From Arenibacter certesii DSM 19833 (GTDB lineage: Bacteria > Bacteroidota > Bacteroidia > Flavobacteriales > Flavobacteriaceae): a stretch of 64,000 bases of DNA. Shown here piece by piece: positions 14,595 through 60,946 of the stretch (its first letter is position 1; the number at the start of each line of letters is the position of its first letter). The stretch covers positions 62,001-126,000 of the forward strand of contig NZ_KE386914.1 of NCBI RefSeq assembly GCF_000429545.1, given 5' to 3'. The notes under the pieces were generated by a model that saw only the letters and a program-made list of their open reading frames with translations, did not search any database and was not told the DNA's origin. The position numbers and the translations under genes were made by a program.

Positions 14595-14606
14595 TAATAA
14601 CTATTG

Positions 14607-17012
14607 ATGAAAAAACATATTAGAAAGGTAGCAGTTATTGGCTCCGGAATCATGGGAAGTGGAATAGCATGTCACTTTGCCAACATAGGAGTAGAAGTTT
14701 TACTGCTAGATATAGTACCACGAGAACTAAATGATAAGGAAAAAGCCAGTGGACTCACCTTAGAAGATAAGGCAGTACGCAATAGATTGGTAAACGAATC
14801 TTTAATGGTTGCATTAAAATCCAAGCCCTCCCCCATTTATCACCCAAAGTTTGCCCAGCGAATAACCACTGGAAATCTTGAAGATGATATCGCTAAAGTT
14901 GGCGAGGTTGACTGGATTATTGAGGTGGTCGTTGAACGATTGGACATCAAGAAAAAGGTATTCGAAAATCTGGAAAAATACAGAAAATCGGGAACATTAA
15001 TCACTTCCAATACCTCTGGTATTCCTATAAAATTTATGAGTGAAGGTAGAAGTGAGGATTTCCAGAAACATTTCTGTGGAACCCACTTTTTTAACCCCGC
15101 CAGATATTTAAAACTATTCGAGATTATTCCAGGACCAAAAACTTCACCAGAGGTTTTGGAATTCCTAAATGGATATGGTGAACAGTTTTTGGGGAAAACT
15201 TCGGTTATAGCCAAGGATACCCCTGCATTTATAGGGAACCGTGTAGGTATTTTTGGAATACAGAGCCTATTCCACATGGTTAAGGAAATGGGACTTACTG
15301 TTGAAGAAGTTGACAAATTAACTGGTCCTGTAATAGGTCGACCTAAATCGGCTACTTTCCGTACAGTAGATGTAGTAGGTTTGGATACCCTAGTGCATGT
15401 TGCCAACGGTATTAATGAAAACTGCCCCAATGATGAACGTCATGAGCTGTTTAAACTGCCTGGCTTCATCAATACCATGATGGAAAACAAATGGTTGGGA
15501 AGTAAAACAGGACAAGGTTTTTATAAAAAAATAAAGAATGCCGATGGTTCCAGTGAGATAAAAACACTAGACCTCAATACCATGGAGTACAGAGCTAATA
15601 AAAGAGCTAGTTTTGCCACTTTAGAGCTTACAAAAACCATAGATAAGGTTGTAGACCGCTATAAGGTGTTAGTTGGTGGAAAAGACACGGCCGGCGAGTT
15701 CTACAGAAAGAGCTTTGCAGCGCTATTTGCCTACGTATCTAACCGGATCCCAGAAATAGCGGATGACCTCTATAAAATTGATGATGCCATGAAGGCTGGA
15801 TTTGGATGGGAACATGGACCCTTTCAAATATGGGATGCCATTGGAGTGCAAGAGGGATTAGAAATGATAAAAAGTGAAGGTCTAAAAGCTGCCCCATGGG
15901 TATCAGAAATGCTAGCATCCGAAAATAAGTCGTTTTACAACGTAAAAAATGGGGCTACTTATTTTTATAATATCACCGCTAAAAAATCAGAAAAAGTACC
16001 TGGACAAGATGCTTTTATTATCCTAGATAATATTCGTAAGTCCAATGAAGTATTTAAAAACAGTGGTGTTGTAGTAGAAGATTTAGGAGATGGAATAGTA
16101 AATGTGGAATTCCAATCCAAAATGAATACCATTGGTGGCGATGTACTTGCAGGACTAAACAAGGCTATAGATATAGCTGAAAAAGATTTCCAAGGATTGG
16201 TAGTTGGCAACCAAGCTCCCAATTTCTCCGTAGGAGCCAATATTGGAATGATTTTTATGATGGCGGTAGAGCAGGAATATGATGAGCTGAATATGGCTAT
16301 TAAAATGTTTCAAGACACGATGATGCGAATGAGGTATTCCGCAATTCCTACCATTTCGGCACCCCATGGGATGACCTTAGGTGGAGGATGCGAACTTTCT
16401 CTTCATGCAGATAAGGTAGTTGCTGCAGCTGAGACTTATATAGGATTGGTAGAATTTGGTGTAGGAGTTATCCCTGGTGGAGGTGGATCTAAAGAATTTG
16501 CCCTTCGAGCGCAGGATACCTTTAAGAAAAACGACGTAGAATTAAACGTTCTCCAGGAGTACTTTCTTACTATAGGAATGGCAAAAGTCTCTACTTCTGC
16601 CTACGAAGCCTATGACCTAGGAATATTACAACACGGAAAGGATATAGTGGTAGTCAATAAAGACCGACAAATAGCAACCGCCAAAGCACATGCCAAATTA
16701 ATGGCAGAAGCAGGATATACTCAACCTATTAAACGCAAGGATATTAAAGTCCTTGGAAAACAAGCCCTTGGAATGTTCTTAGTAGGTACTGATGCTATGG
16801 AAGACAGTAATTACATAAGTGAACACGATAAGAAGATTGCCAATAAATTGGCGTATGTAATGGCAGGAGGAGACTTATCTGAGCCTACCCTGGTATCTGA
16901 ACAGTATCTATTGGATTTGGAAAGGGAAGCCTTCCTATCGCTATGTACTGAAAGAAAAACCTTAGAAAGAATTCAGCACATGTTAAAAACGGGTAAACCG
17001 TTGAGAAACTAA
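14607..17012 (+). CDS. fadN: 3-hydroxyacyl-CoA dehydrogenase / enoyl-CoA hydratase, FadN type
   Basis: Bifunctional beta-oxidation enzyme carrying out hydration of enoyl-CoA and NAD-dependent oxidation of 3-hydroxyacyl-CoA. The 801 residues have the dehydrogenase first (NAD fold VAVIGSGIMGSGIACHFA, then THFFNPARYLKLFE and GNRVGIFG) and the hydratase/crotonase domain last (NQAPNFSVGANI, GMTLGGGCELSLHAD, VEFGVGVIPGGGGS). This order is the reverse of E. coli FadB and matches B. subtilis FadN. I start at ATG 14607; a TTG at 14604 only adds one residue. Cotranscribed with marR. The stop is followed after 4 bases by the repeats that bracket the four-helix-bundle gene. Confidence 0.94.
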   Translation: MKKHIRKVAVIGSGIMGSGIACHFANIGVEVLLLDIVPRELNDKEKASGLTLEDKAVRNRLVNESLMVALKSKPSPIYHPKFAQRITTGNLEDDIAKVGEVDWIIEVVVERLDIKKKVFENLEKYRKSGTLITSNTSGIPIKFMSEGRSEDFQKHFCGTHFFNPARYLKLFEIIPGPKTSPEVLEFLNGYGEQFLGKTSVIAKDTPAFIGNRVGIFGIQSLFHMVKEMGLTVEEVDKLTGPVIGRPKSATFRTVDVVGLDTLVHVANGINENCPNDERHELFKLPGFINTMMENKWLGSKTGQGFYKKIKNADGSSEIKTLDLNTMEYRANKRASFATLELTKTIDKVVDRYKVLVGGKDTAGEFYRKSFAALFAYVSNRIPEIADDLYKIDDAMKAGFGWEHGPFQIWDAIGVQEGLEMIKSEGLKAAPWVSEMLASENKSFYNVKNGATYFYNITAKKSEKVPGQDAFIILDNIRKSNEVFKNSGVVVEDLGDGIVNVEFQSKMNTIGGDVLAGLNKAIDIAEKDFQGLVVGNQAPNFSVGANIGMIFMMAVEQEYDELNMAIKMFQDTMMRMRYSAIPTISAPHGMTLGGGCELSLHADKVVAAAETYIGLVEFGVGVIPGGGGSKEFALRAQDTFKKNDVELNVLQEYFLTIGMAKVSTSAYEAYDLGILQHGKDIVVVNKDRQIATAKAHAKLMAEAGYTQPIKRKDIKVLGKQALGMFLVGTDAMEDSNYISEHDKKIANKLAYVMAGGDLSEPTLVSEQYLLDLEREAFLSLCTERKTLERIQHMLKTGKPLRN

Positions 17013-17016
17013 CAGC

Positions 17017-17042
17017 TTTAGTATTGAGATATTAGTATTGAG
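17017..17042 (+). repeat. left repeat pair of the four-helix-bundle cassette
   Basis: Two direct copies of TTAGTATTGAG (17018-17028 and 17032-17042) with a 14-base period. Their reverse complement occurs twice on the other side of the gene, so the gene is bracketed by inverted repeats. Confidence 0.8.
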
Positions 17043-17055
17043 TAGTTAGACAGAA

Positions 17056-17403
17056 GTGCATAAAGTAGAAGGCTTAAAAATTTGGAGAAAGGCTATGGAT
17101 TTAACAAAATCTATCTATCAACTTGTAACTGAGTTACCTTCTGATGAAAACTACGGGCTAAAATCTCAAATAAAAAGGTGTTCCATTTCTATACCTTCAA
17201 ATATTTCAGAAGGTGCAGGAAGAAACTCCAATAAAGAATTTAAACACTTTTTGTCAATTGCAAATGGATCTGCCTATGAACTACAAACACAATTAATTCT
17301 ATTGTGGGAGTTAAATTTAATATCAAAAGAAAAAGTACAACCCATTATTGAACAATGCATTGAAATTCAGAAAATGAATTATTCATTTCAAAAAACATTA
17401 TAA
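17056..17403 (+). CDS. four-helix-bundle protein (S23/IVP family) inserted in the fad operon
   Basis: A 115-residue protein of the 23S rRNA intervening-sequence (S23) / four-helix-bundle family, related to the Avd protein of diversity-generating retroelements. Visible hallmarks are LKIWRKAMDLTKSIYQLV, LPSDENYGLKSQIKRCSISIPSNISEGAGR and FLSIANGSAYELQTQL. The start is GTG; it gives the usual short N-terminus before KVEGLKIW. No rRNA gene is here: it lies between fadN and fadA with 43- and 65-base flanks carrying inverted copies of TTAGTATTGAG. It has no evident role in fatty-acid metabolism. Family members may bind nucleic acid, but the function of these stand-alone copies is not established. 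The bracketing repeats suggest an inserted cassette. Confidence 0.88.
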   Translation: MHKVEGLKIWRKAMDLTKSIYQLVTELPSDENYGLKSQIKRCSISIPSNISEGAGRNSNKEFKHFLSIANGSAYELQTQLILLWELNLISKEKVQPIIEQCIEIQKMNYSFQKTL

Positions 17404-17432
17404 ATCACCTTATAAATATCCAACACTAAAAT

Positions 17433-17464
17433 CTCAATACTCATATCTAAATACTCAATACTAA
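17433..17464 (+). repeat. right repeat pair of the four-helix-bundle cassette
   Basis: CTCAATACTCA (17433-17443) and CTCAATACTAA (17454-17464): the second is the exact inverse complement of the left-side repeat, the first differs by one base. The pair ends 4 bases before the fadA ATG. Confidence 0.8.
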
Positions 17465-17468
17465 AATC

Positions 17469-18659
17469 ATGAAAACAGCATATATAGTAAAAGCATATAG
17501 AACAGCGGTAGGAAAAGCTCCTAAAGGGGTCTTCCGCTTTAAGCGTACAGATGAATTGGCAGCGGAAACCATAGAATATATGATGAAAGAGTTGCCACAG
17601 CTCGATAAAAAACGCATTGACGATGTCATTGTAGGAAACGCCATGCCAGAAGGTTCTCAAGGGCTTAATATGGCACGACTCATCTCTTTAATGGGATTAG
17701 ACATAGTTGACGTTCCTGGAGTTACTGTAAACAGATTTTGCGCCTCTGGAATAGAAACTATTGGAGTAGCCACCGCAAAAATTCAAGCTGGTATGGCCGA
17801 TTGTATTATTGCTGGGGGAGCAGAAAGCATGAGTGCGGTCCCTATGACTGGCTATAAAACAGAACTTAATTACGACTTGGCTAAATCTGGTCACGAAGAT
17901 TATTACTGGGGTATGGGAAATACTGCTGAAGCTGTTGCCAAGCAGTTTAAGGTATCTAGGGAAGATCAGGACGAGTTTGCCTACCATTCCCATATGAAAG
18001 CGTTAAAAGCGCAAGCAGAAGACCGCTTCCAAAGTCAGATCGTACCAATAGATGTAGAGCAGATTTATATAGATGAGAACGGAAAAAAGGCGACAAAGAA
18101 CTATACGGTCACCAAAGATGAAGGTCCCCGTAAAGGAACTAGTTTAGAAGCTTTGGCGAAACTTCGCCCCGTATTTGCTGCTGGAGGTAGCGTTACTGCT
18201 GGAAACTCTTCCCAAATGAGTGATGGCGCCGCCTTTGTAATGGTAATGAGCGAAGAAATGGTAAAAGAATTAAACTTGGAACCCATTGCCAGACTGGTAA
18301 ATTATGCTGCTGCAGGTGTAGAACCTCGGATTATGGGGATCGGACCGGTAAAAGCCATTCCCAAAGCGCTAAAGCAAGCGGGATTAAAGCAAGAGGATGT
18401 AGAATTAATTGAGTTAAACGAAGCCTTTGCTTCTCAATCCATAGCAGTAATTAGAGAGTTAAACCTTAACTCTGATATTGTAAACGTTAACGGTGGAGCC
18501 ATCGCTTTAGGCCATCCATTAGGATGTACAGGTGCCAAGTTGTCCGTTCAACTGTTCGACGAAATGAGAAAGCGAAATATGAAAGGGAAATATGGTATGG
18601 TTACCATGTGCGTAGGAACCGGACAAGGAGCAGCAGGGATTTATGAGTTCCTAAATTAA
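17469..18659 (+). CDS. fadA: acetyl-CoA C-acyltransferase (3-ketoacyl-CoA thiolase)
   Basis: Last step of beta-oxidation, cleaving 3-ketoacyl-CoA with CoA. The 396 residues show the nucleophile C91 in [11 protein letters not shown], the [12 protein letters not shown] segment, [10 protein letters not shown], the catalytic His in [15 protein letters not shown] and the second catalytic Cys in [11 protein letters not shown]. Length is typical for the family. It follows the four-helix-bundle cassette, whose right repeats end just before this ATG; without the cassette it would be close behind fadN. An acyl-CoA dehydrogenase follows after 124 bases. Confidence 0.95.
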
Positions 18660-18783: not shown

Positions 18784-20589
18784 ATGGAAACTACAGATAA
18801 AGAAATCTTACGAGGAGGACAATTCCTTGTAAAGGAAACAAAATGTGAGGATGTATTTACGCTTGAGGATTTATCCGAAGAGCAAAAAATGATGCGGGAG
18901 AGCACCAAAGAATTTGTGGATAGAGAGCTTTGGGCTCATTGGGAGCGATTTGAAAATAAAGATTACGCTTATACCGAAGAAACCATGCGCAAAGCGGGGG
19001 AATTAGGATTATTAAGTGTTGCAGTACCGGAATCTTACGGAGGAATGGGGATGGGTTTTGTATCTACCATGTTGGTATGTGATTATATTTCTGGGGCTAC
19101 TGGATCTTTTAGTACCGCCTTTGGTGCACACACTGGAATTGGCACCATGCCTATTACCCTGTATGGTACTGAAGAGCAAAAACAAAAATACGTACCCAAA
19201 TTGGCTTCAGGAGAATGGTTTGGCGCTTATTGCTTAACCGAACCAGGTGCCGGCTCCGATGCCAATTCTGGAAAGACCAAAGCTGTTCTTTCTGATGATG
19301 GTAAATACTATAGCATTTCGGGACAAAAAGTGTGGATATCCAATGCCGGATTCTGTAATCTGTTCATTGTTTTCGCTCGGATTGAGGACGATAAGAATAT
19401 TACTGGTTTTATTGTGGAGAATGACCCCAGTAATGGAATTACTTTGGGAGAAGAAGAAAGGAAATTAGGAATCCACTCCTCCTCTACCCGCCAAGTATTC
19501 TTTAGCGATACCAAAGTTCCGATAGAGAATATGCTTTCGGAACGTGGCAACGGTTTTAAGATCGCTATGAATGCGTTGAATATAGGTCGGATAAAACTGG
19601 CAGCTGCCTGTTTGGAAGCGCAAAGACGTGTTATTGGTGAGGCTACTAAATATGCTAATGAAAGAATCCAGTTTAAGACACCAATTATCAATTTTGGCGC
19701 TATAAAAGCAAAGATTGCAAATATGGCCACCAATTGCTACGCAGATGAGTCTGCAAGTTATAGGGCTGCAAAAAACATTGAAGATAGGATTGCCATGAGA
19801 CAGGCTGCAGGCAATTCTCATCAGGAAGCGGAACTAAAGGGTGTTGAAGAGTATGCTATAGAGTGCTCTATCTTAAAAGTAGCTGCATCCGAAGACGTTC
19901 AGAATACGACGGATGAAGGAATCCAAATTTTTGGGGGAATGGGATTTTCTGCAGACACCCCAATGGAATCTGCATGGAGAGATGCCCGTATTGCCCGAAT
20001 ATATGAGGGAACCAATGAAATCAATAGAATGTTGGTTGTAGGTATGCTAGTTAAAAAAGCCATGAAGGGCCATGTAGATCTTCTAGGACCAGCAACCAAG
20101 GTAGGTGAAGAATTAATGGGAATACCTTCTTTTGATGTGCCTGATTTCTCCGAATTGTTTGCGGAAGAAAAGGATTTATTAGCACGACTGAAGAAAGTGT
20201 TTTTAATGGTTGCCGGTAGTGCCGTACAAAAATATGGACCTGATTTAGAAAACCATCAACAACTAATGCTCTCTGCTGCCGATATTCTGATTGAAATCTA
20301 TATGGCGGAATCTACGATCCTTAGAACAGAAAAAAATGCGAAACGTTTCGGAGAAGAAGCTCAATCCACTCAAATAGCAATGTCTAGATTATACTTATAC
20401 ACTGCAGTGGACACCATCATCCAAAAAGGAAAGGAAGCTATAGTTTCTTTCGCTGAAGGCGATGAGCAACGCATGATGCTAATGGGACTTAGACGTTTCA
20501 CAAAATATACAAATCAACCTAACGTAGTGGCTTTACGCACACAAATTGCCGATAGAGTAGCTGCGGATAATGGTTATACCTTTGACTAA
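18784..20589 (+). CDS. fadE: acyl-CoA dehydrogenase, FadE type
   Basis: First oxidative step of beta-oxidation. The 601 residues include an acyl-CoA dehydrogenase core (SEEQKMMRESTKEFVDRELW, GAYCLTEPGAGSDANSG, ISGQKVWISNAG, IQIFGGMGFSADTPMESAWRDARI, YEGTNEINRM, the last holding the likely catalytic Glu) and about 190 further C-terminal residues. This is the size and form of B. subtilis FadE (YusJ), and the order fadN-fadA-fadE is the same. The 124-base gap after fadA is long, and a promoter there cannot be excluded. A terminator follows the stop. Confidence 0.94.
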   Translation: METTDKEILRGGQFLVKETKCEDVFTLEDLSEEQKMMRESTKEFVDRELWAHWERFENKDYAYTEETMRKAGELGLLSVAVPESYGGMGMGFVSTMLVCDYISGATGSFSTAFGAHTGIGTMPITLYGTEEQKQKYVPKLASGEWFGAYCLTEPGAGSDANSGKTKAVLSDDGKYYSISGQKVWISNAGFCNLFIVFARIEDDKNITGFIVENDPSNGITLGEEERKLGIHSSSTRQVFFSDTKVPIENMLSERGNGFKIAMNALNIGRIKLAAACLEAQRRVIGEATKYANERIQFKTPIINFGAIKAKIANMATNCYADESASYRAAKNIEDRIAMRQAAGNSHQEAELKGVEEYAIECSILKVAASEDVQNTTDEGIQIFGGMGFSADTPMESAWRDARIARIYEGTNEINRMLVVGMLVKKAMKGHVDLLGPATKVGEELMGIPSFDVPDFSELFAEEKDLLARLKKVFLMVAGSAVQKYGPDLENHQQLMLSAADILIEIYMAESTILRTEKNAKRFGEEAQSTQIAMSRLYLYTAVDTIIQKGKEAIVSFAEGDEQRMMLMGLRRFTKYTNQPNVVALRTQIADRVAADNGYTFD

Positions 20590-60486: not shown

Positions 60487-60946
60487 TTGATTCCGTTAAT
60501 TTTTAATTTTAAAGATAGTAAACTAGATTAAGATTGGTGAAATAGATCCTAACCATCCTGTATTTAAATAAACTAATTGATCCATTGAAAATGGATAACA
60601 TTAATCTACATTTCAAATTTTCAAATTGACTCGTGTCCAGTAGCGGGAACAAATTGGAAGTAATCTTCTTTTGCTGTAAACAATCCAACCTATCAATACT
60701 TTGCAGCGCTTAGTCAATTTATAATCAACGGCAGGGAAGAAAAACTCATACAGAAAGTTATCTACCCCTACTCCTGCGAGTGTGATTTCTCTCCCGATGG
60801 CTCGGAACGTTGTAATAGGCAACTCAAAAGGAAATGACAGGGTGCTGATTTTCAAATTATTACATTGCTTAATTTTTACATTAATCAATTGTTACATAAA
60901 ATCAAATTTTCAAATTAACAAATCAACTCATCTCCAAATTAACTCG
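60487..60946. other. 460-base inter-sulfatase region with repeats and no clear gene
   Basis: The 15-mer TCAAATTTTCAAATT occurs at 60613 and 60902, and CAAATTRACTCGT at 60622 and 60935, so a segment of about 290 bases is bracketed by direct repeats; the right copy touches the stop codon of the next sulfatase. A 91-codon minus-strand frame (60613-60888) lies inside, but its translation resembles nothing and its stop falls in the left repeat. It may be the remnant of a small mobile cassette. Confidence 0.6.
60613..60634 (+). repeat. left direct repeat of the inter-sulfatase segment
   Basis: TCAAATTTTCAAATT at 60613-60627, running into CAAATTGACTCGT to 60634. Both parts recur at 60902-60947. Confidence 0.75.

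Follow-up and report, generated by a model that had tools for sequence, protein, structure and literature searches.

The closest described counterpart of the element considered here is the intervening sequence (IVS) of 23S rRNA. In passages of PMC4990558, the IVS of the Coxiella/Leptospira type is described as an S23p open reading frame (ORF) with complementary ends that is excised by RNase III and confined to a few conserved sites; the same passages record an earlier proposal that the IVS is a mobile element or the remnant of one, and state that the function of the S23/IVP family is unknown. Here, a 64,000-nucleotide stretch of the Arenibacter certesii DSM 19833 genome (contig NZ_KE386914.1, positions 62,001 to 126,000 of the forward strand), hereafter the window, was analyzed because a gene of this family, encoding a four-helix-bundle (4HB) protein, lies in it between fadN and fadA. 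On balance, this feature probably belongs to a family of small mobile cassettes that are homing-like, faithful to their sites, and located in operon junctions. The best reading of these cassettes, by analogy, would be as the operon-mRNA counterpart of the 23S rRNA IVS.

The cassette occupies positions 17013..17468 (+ strand, 456 bp), from the fadN stop to the fadA start, boundaries that were set by reference to empty sites elsewhere. The left host gene (14604..17012, +), a fadN-like gene for a 3-hydroxyacyl-CoA dehydrogenase/enoyl-CoA hydratase, ends in a TAA stop at 17010–17012 and has both 3HCDH and ECH domains, and the fadA-like right host gene (17469..18659, +) has its thiolase domains. 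The view of the initial annotation that a discrete cassette stands between two intact genes was borne out. Within the cassette, a left arm of degenerate 7-nucleotide repeats (17013..17055, +; clearest at 17018–17049) precedes the 4HB gene (17056..17403, +; GTG start, 115 amino acids, identified by profile matches), which is followed by a right arm of inverted 7-nucleotide repeats (17404..17468, +; clearest at 17413–17468) in which Tandem Repeats Finder (TRF) reports periods of 14 and 7 across 17416–17462. The protein belongs to the S23/IVP family by its matches to PF05635 (E 1.4e-40; 138.3 bits, curated cut-off 33.8) and TIGR02436 (E 1.3e-38; 131.5 bits, cut-off 24). Its best solved relative is 2GSC (Xcc0516; E 3.7e-20), described in the passages of PMC4990558 as five four-helix bundles in a ring, and its closest named relative, at 97% identity, is from Arenibacter latericius. 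The 4.99-Mb host genome contains five 4HB loci, two of them broken, and all five are flanked by frames on the 4HB strand.

Two copies of TTAGTATTGAG are present on the left of the gene (17018–17028 and 17032–17042, +) and two inverted copies on its right (17454–17464, exact; 17433–17443, one mismatch). The 4-base spacings claimed at both ends hold on the right, where the last copy stops 4 bases short of the fadA ATG; on the left, the first copy begins 5 bases past the fadN stop. Rather than isolated 11-mers, the repeats form period-7 arrays (TTAGTAT TGAGATA TTAGTAT TGAGTAG TTAG), the right array being the inverse of the left. The number of TTAGTATTGAG copies in the window is modest (six matches at ≤1 mismatch, a count also reached by 2 of 100 shuffles), and genome-wide there are 20 occurrences versus one for the pattern read backward. 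Eight further copies are found within 17 kb of contig C1 of genome G000 (274409–291133; L010–L017), several within mixed heptamer-like arrays and four spaced by ∼240–320 bp in similar units.

Eighteen genomes of the genus, including the host, yielded 92 matches that were counted as 86 4HB loci; 82 of these were examined, the other four (L033, L036, L037, and L039) being decayed fadN/fadA copies. Three further sets consisted of 109 loci from other genera of the family, being those among the matches listed, 80 loci of named relatives of the window protein, and 30 loci from the phylum. To measure arm pairing, each left arm was scored against the reverse complement of its right arm, and the controls were arms swapped between 4HB types, flanks of other genes, and single-base shuffles. 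Because single-base shuffles are lenient for simple repeats, weight was put on the swapped-arm control. For window-type cassettes (n = 3), the mean inverted arm match was 22.3, compared with 10.7 for arms swapped between types, 0.25% of the swaps reaching the former score. Across the genus (n = 69, the test leaving out 13 of the 82 loci), the mean was 15.9 for own arms and 9.96 for arms of different 4HB types (95th percentile, 14), the latter mean being 10.5 when the comparison was made within one junction. Against single-base shuffles, inverted arms were detected at p ≤ 0.01 in 40/69 genus loci and at p ≤ 0.05 in 50/69. At p ≤ 0.01, they were present in 74 of the 109 other-genus loci (8 after the right arms were swapped), in 15 of 29 phylum loci (one of the 30 being left out; 2 after swapping), and in 62 of the 80 named loci (20 after swapping, a control that is inflated because most named loci have a common junction and similar motifs).

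The self-match of the arms was maximal at a lag of 7, with a second peak at 14, consistent with tandem 7-nucleotide units: lag-7 values were 0.37 for the genus types, 0.40 for the family, 0.42 for the named loci, and 0.34 for the phylum, compared with 0.27–0.29 for ORFs. By eye, a few lineages seem to have a period of 8 rather than 7. Flanks of the other window genes were inverted at p ≤ 0.01 in 0/39 cases and at p ≤ 0.05 in 3/39, and two other stretches of the host genome gave p ≤ 0.01 for 0/13 and 2/19 genes. Of the latter two matches, one was itself a 4HB gene, that preceding hemW; the 13-gene stretch also contains the scoA/scoB 4HB copy, which gave no match. That own arms outscore swapped arms indicates that most cassettes carry their own matched pair and that a change of 4HB lineage brings a change of arm motif. 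The swapped-arm and other-gene controls ruled out an explanation by chance repeats or simple sequence.

When the RNA from 17010 to 17471 was folded, the arms were predicted to pair into a terminal stem that closes around the ORF (minimum free energy −87.5 kcal/mol; z −3.4), and 1 of 100 shuffles folded equally well. At its base, the predicted stem comes within a few nucleotides of both the fadN stop and the fadA start. No Rfam match was obtained in window positions 16500–18000, and a known RNA family was accordingly rejected. An ORF of the S23p family and, in the predicted fold, complementary ends around it are thus shared with the 23S rRNA IVS, which is the nearest known system; judged by the described parts of that system, the likeness extends to a length of ∼430–450 nucleotides, one same-family ORF, stem-forming ends, few sites, and a decay-prone ORF. 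Unlike the IVS as published, which lies in a helix of 23S rRNA, the cassettes stand between protein-coding operon genes (fadN and fadA in the window), have arms built of heptamer arrays, occupy many junctions, and are exchanged between species.

Heptameric repeats have themselves been described. Intergenic TAACTGA repeats are reported for Beggiatoaceae, cyanobacteria, and Bacteroidetes in passages of PMC4679880, and GGGAATC repeats in Xanthomonas and GGGGA(C/T)T repeats in Nostoc in passages of PMC4692102. As presented there, these are likewise 7-nucleotide, intergenic units near start or stop codons and between aligned genes, occurring as convergent pairs in Xanthomonas, and according to the PMC4692102 passages they are generally unassociated with mobile elements. 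A link to 4HB genes is absent from the vocabulary of these papers: “23s,” “intervening,” and “four helix” occur 0 times in PMC4679880, as do “s23” and “helix bundle” in PMC4692102. Passages of PMC4907049 and PMC3542288 on cyanobacterial genomes name neither S23 nor helix-bundle proteins. No description joining 4HB genes with heptamer arms was found in the open-access literature, most subscription papers and bioRxiv preprints lying outside the search. In PMC5524665, 4HB genes are tabulated among phage elements; a phage origin was rejected here, as the window 4HB protein matched no phage record.

Within the genus, six operon junctions hold 73 of the 82 examined loci: fadN/fadA (10 loci), the site before hemW (17), scoA/scoB (18), sufC/sufD (10), sdhA/sdhB (9), and ffh/folD (9). 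Short pieces served to check the names sdhA, sdhB, sufC, scoA, scoB, ffh, folD, and hemW, and fadN, fadA, and acyl-CoA dehydrogenase were also checked; sufD gave no match in this check and, like cysD/cysN, metH, atpA/atpG, and the mevalonate pair, was named by eye. Both neighboring frames share the strand of the 4HB gene at 80/82 genus loci, 103/109 other-genus loci, 76/80 named loci, and 27/30 phylum loci, strand being taken from the longest open frame on each side and not from gene calls. Random position and orientation would give ∼31% same-strand neighbors, an estimate based on the gene order of the window, with only 39 gene pairs and non-independent loci. At three of the 27 phylum loci (L342, L355, and L358), the 4HB sequence, with heptamer-like edges, is in frame within a larger ORF, as if a cassette had gone into a coding gene without adding a stop.

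At fadN/fadA, a cassette or remnant was found in 18/18 genus genomes, 10 being in the examined set and 8 frameshifted or mostly deleted. Three motif types occur there (TATTGAG, CTAGACC, and AGTATTA), each with a corresponding 4HB type, and by eye the three interleave on the host tree. Two separate 4HB lineages are likewise found at each of sdhA/sdhB, sufC/sufD, ffh/folD, and the hemW site, such that at five of the six junctions different species carry separate lineages with their own motif at both ends; the scoA/scoB copies form a group of their own, split into two deep subgroups. The 4HB tree leaves out 12 of the 82 proteins, which are shorter than 75 amino acids. A single entry event, as initially envisaged, is not what these data suggest; the window copy is instead one among numerous cassettes that circulate through a small set of conserved junctions, and their 4HB lineages often remain bound to one junction across genera.

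A comparison of relatives for empty sites had been suggested, and such sites were found: of 26 readable fadN/fadA junctions in other genera, 11 are empty (3–6-bp gap), 6 contain a 4HB cassette, and 9 contain an insert of 58–135 bp. This sample comprises 29 loci given from 55 genomes with a fadN match, 3 of them unreadable. In six of these nine inserts, the two halves are inverted relative to each other (p ≤ 0.002), two of the six being GC-rich and not heptameric by eye. At sdhA/sdhB, seven genus genomes have inserts of 65–79 bp composed of TATTGAG-like heptamers, the motif of the window cassette, and an eighth, G000, has an insert with a like beginning; the inserts of G001 and G003 fold at z −3.2 and −5.1. 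Such heptamer-built short inserts look like ORF-less relatives of the cassettes. The fadN stop is TAG at 10/15 sites with an insert compared with 2/11 empty sites (L123–L150; p 0.02), an observation made post hoc and useful as a lead only; the edge of the insert may supply the final bases of the stop codon.

Median dN/dS (the ratio of nonsynonymous to synonymous divergence) of the 4HB gene within 11 types was 0.06–0.13, indicative of purifying selection, as determined for copies scoring ≥100 and pairs with dS of 0.05–1.5. Taken with the broken copies, low dN/dS fits either an element whose own spread is under selection or a gene that is useful but losable.

Exchange between species is apparent from comparison of inserts with their flanks. 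The sdhA/sdhB inserts of G011 and G012 are 99.6% identical, with flanks at 85.8 and 89.0%, whereas G011 and its sister G017 have flanks that are 94.5 and 97.5% identical yet carry different inserts. Similarly, the sufC/sufD inserts of G011 and G015 are 95.3% identical and the flanks 86.2 and 87.8%, and the sisters on the fadN/fadA tree, G017 and G005, have the other sufC/sufD type, the G005 copy being broken. On the flank tree of sdhA/sdhB, six changes were counted among nine 4HB cassettes and seven short inserts (16 genomes; G000, whose sdhB start was not found, and G013, a paralogue, are left out of the 18). In seven tract tests, the nearest host-native site was 0–50 nucleotides upstream and 11–98 nucleotides downstream. 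By these comparisons, some cassettes have crossed between species with little detectable flanking DNA, and the same site has been reached by horizontal spread, as in homing elements. A single old vertical insertion was ruled out for the genus by the changes of cassette type and the insert/flank identities, although vertical persistence still contributes. The initial annotation had treated vertical descent at this junction throughout related genera, or repeats elsewhere lacking such genes, as grounds for rejection: a cassette or remnant is indeed at the junction throughout the genus, and repeats lacking a gene of this kind do exist, but the history is not purely vertical.

These data also bear on slippage of simple sequence beside a gene long inherited by vertical descent. 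In favor of slippage are the short repeat unit and its variable copy number, as between G006 and G011 at sdhA/sdhB; nonetheless, both arms switch motif together between lineages, empty sites are known, and certain interspecies comparisons show higher identity for the insert than for its flanks, which makes slippage scarcely credible.

Junction fidelity was pronounced. On a tree of 178 4HB proteins, with 131 tips at recurrent junctions and 19 labels, the junction label shifts 26 times versus 89–100 times in 50 shuffles; as tips are not independent, this is a description and carries no p-value. Some labels were wrongly merged (paralogous dehydrogenases and thiolases labeled fad, one of which was relabeled), resulting in extra label changes. 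Among the named relatives of the window protein, 57/80 are located at fadN/fadA, including the first 30 without exception, and these extend to Pedobacter and Chitinophaga-labeled genomes. A rare move is represented by the CTAGACC lineage of the genus, which is at fadN/fadA but nested in a lineage mostly at fadA/acyl-CoA dehydrogenase. At the latter junction, which forms a second hotspot, nine other genera carry a 4HB gene (L170, L174, L178, L187, L195, L235, L239, L242, and L248); in the window, where the acyl-CoA dehydrogenase gene lies at 18784..20589 (+), this junction is unfilled. Across 55 fadN/fadA loci, the nearest neighbor was the same for the 4HB protein and the host in 25. The weak correlation between 4HB and host identity (rho 0.34 over these loci), together with the rare moves and the swaps, indicates that long residence and horizontal exchange both occur.

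Several observations weigh against a mobile cassette. The inverted arm match misses p ≤ 0.05 in 19/69 genus loci. Among the seven tract tests, the two at hemW carry little weight, the like-cassette comparators being distant, and three further tests mix native with donor-like sites, the native site lying ≤81 nucleotides upstream and ≤140 nucleotides downstream. Among 196 same-type pairs, the insert exceeds both flanks in identity by >4% in only 27, and for scoA/scoB it is the flanks that are on average the more similar (+0.076, 105 pairs). The 4HB and host identities do correlate, if weakly, and the host tree is contradicted by only one of seven well-supported 4HB splits at fadN/fadA, so that a long stay at one junction also fits vertical inheritance. 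Target-site duplications, which had been suggested as a check, were looked for by eye between empty and filled fadN/fadA sites and none was recognized. Finally, the cassette carries only the 4HB gene and encodes no nuclease, recombinase, or reverse transcriptase (RT), and very short homologous-recombination tracts could yield the exchanges.

The main rival, which we consider rather unlikely, is ordinary recombination that swaps an intergenic allele through very short tracts. Here, a selected, operon-embedded gene for an RNA-binding 4HB protein would be exchanged by the host, foreign DNA recombining through short flanking homology with no mobility function involved. Purifying selection on the 4HB gene, the long junction fidelity, and the weak correlation of 4HB with host identity are in keeping with this, as are donor-like sites that in a few swaps extend 24–30 nucleotides into the upstream gene (suf G015; sdh G005 and G015) and 42–113 nucleotides into the downstream gene. 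However, in all ten swaps examined a host-native site falls ≤81 nucleotides upstream and ≤140 nucleotides downstream, and tracts of this size are short for bacterial recombination. Allele exchange also leaves unexplained the inverted arms and why separate 4HB lineages with different arms meet at the same few junctions, and the frequent decay of the gene (8/18 fadN/fadA copies) speaks against an essential host function. For the homing-like cassette, any dedicated insertion mechanism is inferred.

Mobilization in trans was raised in the initial annotation; such mobilization by an RT or a Y1 transposase has so far found no support. Among 22 sampled family genomes rich in copies (≥4), 12 have no PF00078 RT, 6 have no PF01797 Y1 match, and 4 have neither. 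Within the genus, an RVT_1 match (E ≤ 0.001) is absent from 8/18 genomes, including G007, G011, and G016, which have exchanged cassettes; the host genome has two such matches, both away from the cassette, and visual inspection of the listed neighboring ORFs revealed no RT, template, or variable repeat. Neither enzyme is consistently present in cassette-bearing genomes, and both were set aside as helpers.

These searches render improbable a retroelement passenger, in which an Avd-like 4HB protein would present the cassette RNA to an RT acting in trans and the resulting cDNA would replace the resident cassette. Avd and bAvd of diversity-generating retroelements are related four-helix-bundle proteins with a weak profile match to the window protein, the predicted fold gives the cassette an RNA-like anatomy, and an RT is somewhat commoner in genomes with 4HB (17/45 versus 2/15; p 0.11). 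Against this stand the RT-free genomes of the genus and of the copy-rich set, and the NF033474 score of 30 bits against a cut-off of 80, the Avd and bAvd cut-offs both being missed.

Still less probable is an element resembling a miniature inverted-repeat transposable element (MITE), with hairpin ends acted on by a Y1 transposase of the IS200/IS605 or RAYT-like kind. Counts of Y1 and 4HB matches correlate (rho 0.37, p 0.004) and ORF-less hairpin forms occur, but six copy-rich genomes are without Y1 and arm sequences differ between lineages. An autonomous transposon partner was not found. MITEs and REPINs are short, have inverted ends, and give rise to ORF-less derivatives. The cassettes share these features and differ in having a conserved protein gene, lineage-specific ends, and no matching transposase identified.

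The 4HB family was detected in 45 of 60 sampled genera of Flavobacteriaceae, in 223 of 296 sampled Bacteroidota genomes, and in 0 of 14 control genomes. The window protein also matched 28 plasmid records, mostly cyanobacterial. Of nine that were opened, seven have strongly inverted arms (scores 18–34; 0/500 shuffles), the period not being clearly 7 in L379; L372 has direct rather than inverted heptamers, and L373 no significant arm match. Inverted heptamer arms likewise flank one more 4HB gene, carried by a Nostoc plasmid, and other genes on two Nostoc plasmid stretches gave p ≤ 0.01 in 0/39 and 3/56 cases, none strongly of period 7. In L372 and L374 (Pseudanabaena and Anabaena plasmids), type I-D CRISPR operons carry the 4HB gene between cas6 and cas4, a position that may explain why 23S rRNA IVP is named in a legend of CRISPR-associated domains in PMC10910872. 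In the cyanobacterial plasmid loci L371 and L373, the gene is antisense to both neighbors, which share one orientation and are ribonucleotide reductase genes in L371 and secretion genes in L373. Elsewhere in the window, a repeat-rich gap with TTACATTAATC-like units (60487–60946) separates two sulfatase-like genes of the minus strand; it has TRF rows of period 16 at 60855–60905, resembles the scoA/scoB cassette arms, contains no ORF of 100 amino acids, and is perhaps a decayed cassette.

Free-standing homing elements and group I/II introns are faithful to their sites, pass horizontally into cognate sites, and make ectopic moves only rarely. The cassettes are like them in all three respects and unlike them in encoding no nuclease, intron ribozyme, or RT and in having no Rfam match. 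The following scheme is proposed for the homing-like cassette. A 4HB gene within an inverted pair of degenerate heptamer arrays is lodged in a host operon, after the stop codon of one gene and before the start codon of the following one. Once transcribed into the operon mRNA, the arms could fold into a long stem with the 4HB gene looped out, as with the ends of the 23S rRNA IVS. RNase III would probably cut this stem, such that expression of the host genes continues and the insertion does little harm. From species to species, cassettes would spread to the same junction, displacing the resident, and would reach a new junction rarely. The 4HB protein, kept by selection, would probably serve as the cassette's own recognition factor for the arms or the RNA.

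More tentatively, it is possible that S23/IVP 4HB proteins are the mobility factors of a new, minimal class of homing element in operon mRNA and rRNA, composed of one 115-amino-acid gene with inverted heptamer arrays and lacking a nuclease, ORF-less derivatives of which give at least part of the unexplained heptamer repeats in cyanobacteria, Bacteroidota, Xanthomonas, and Beggiatoaceae. The inverted heptamers and the exchange of cassettes give the S23/IVP family a role to test. The rRNA IVS would then be one instance of a more general element, and the heptamer repeats of several phyla would gain a possible origin. If the 4HB protein does drive insertion, the cassettes would, in our judgment, be among the smallest site-faithful mobile systems.

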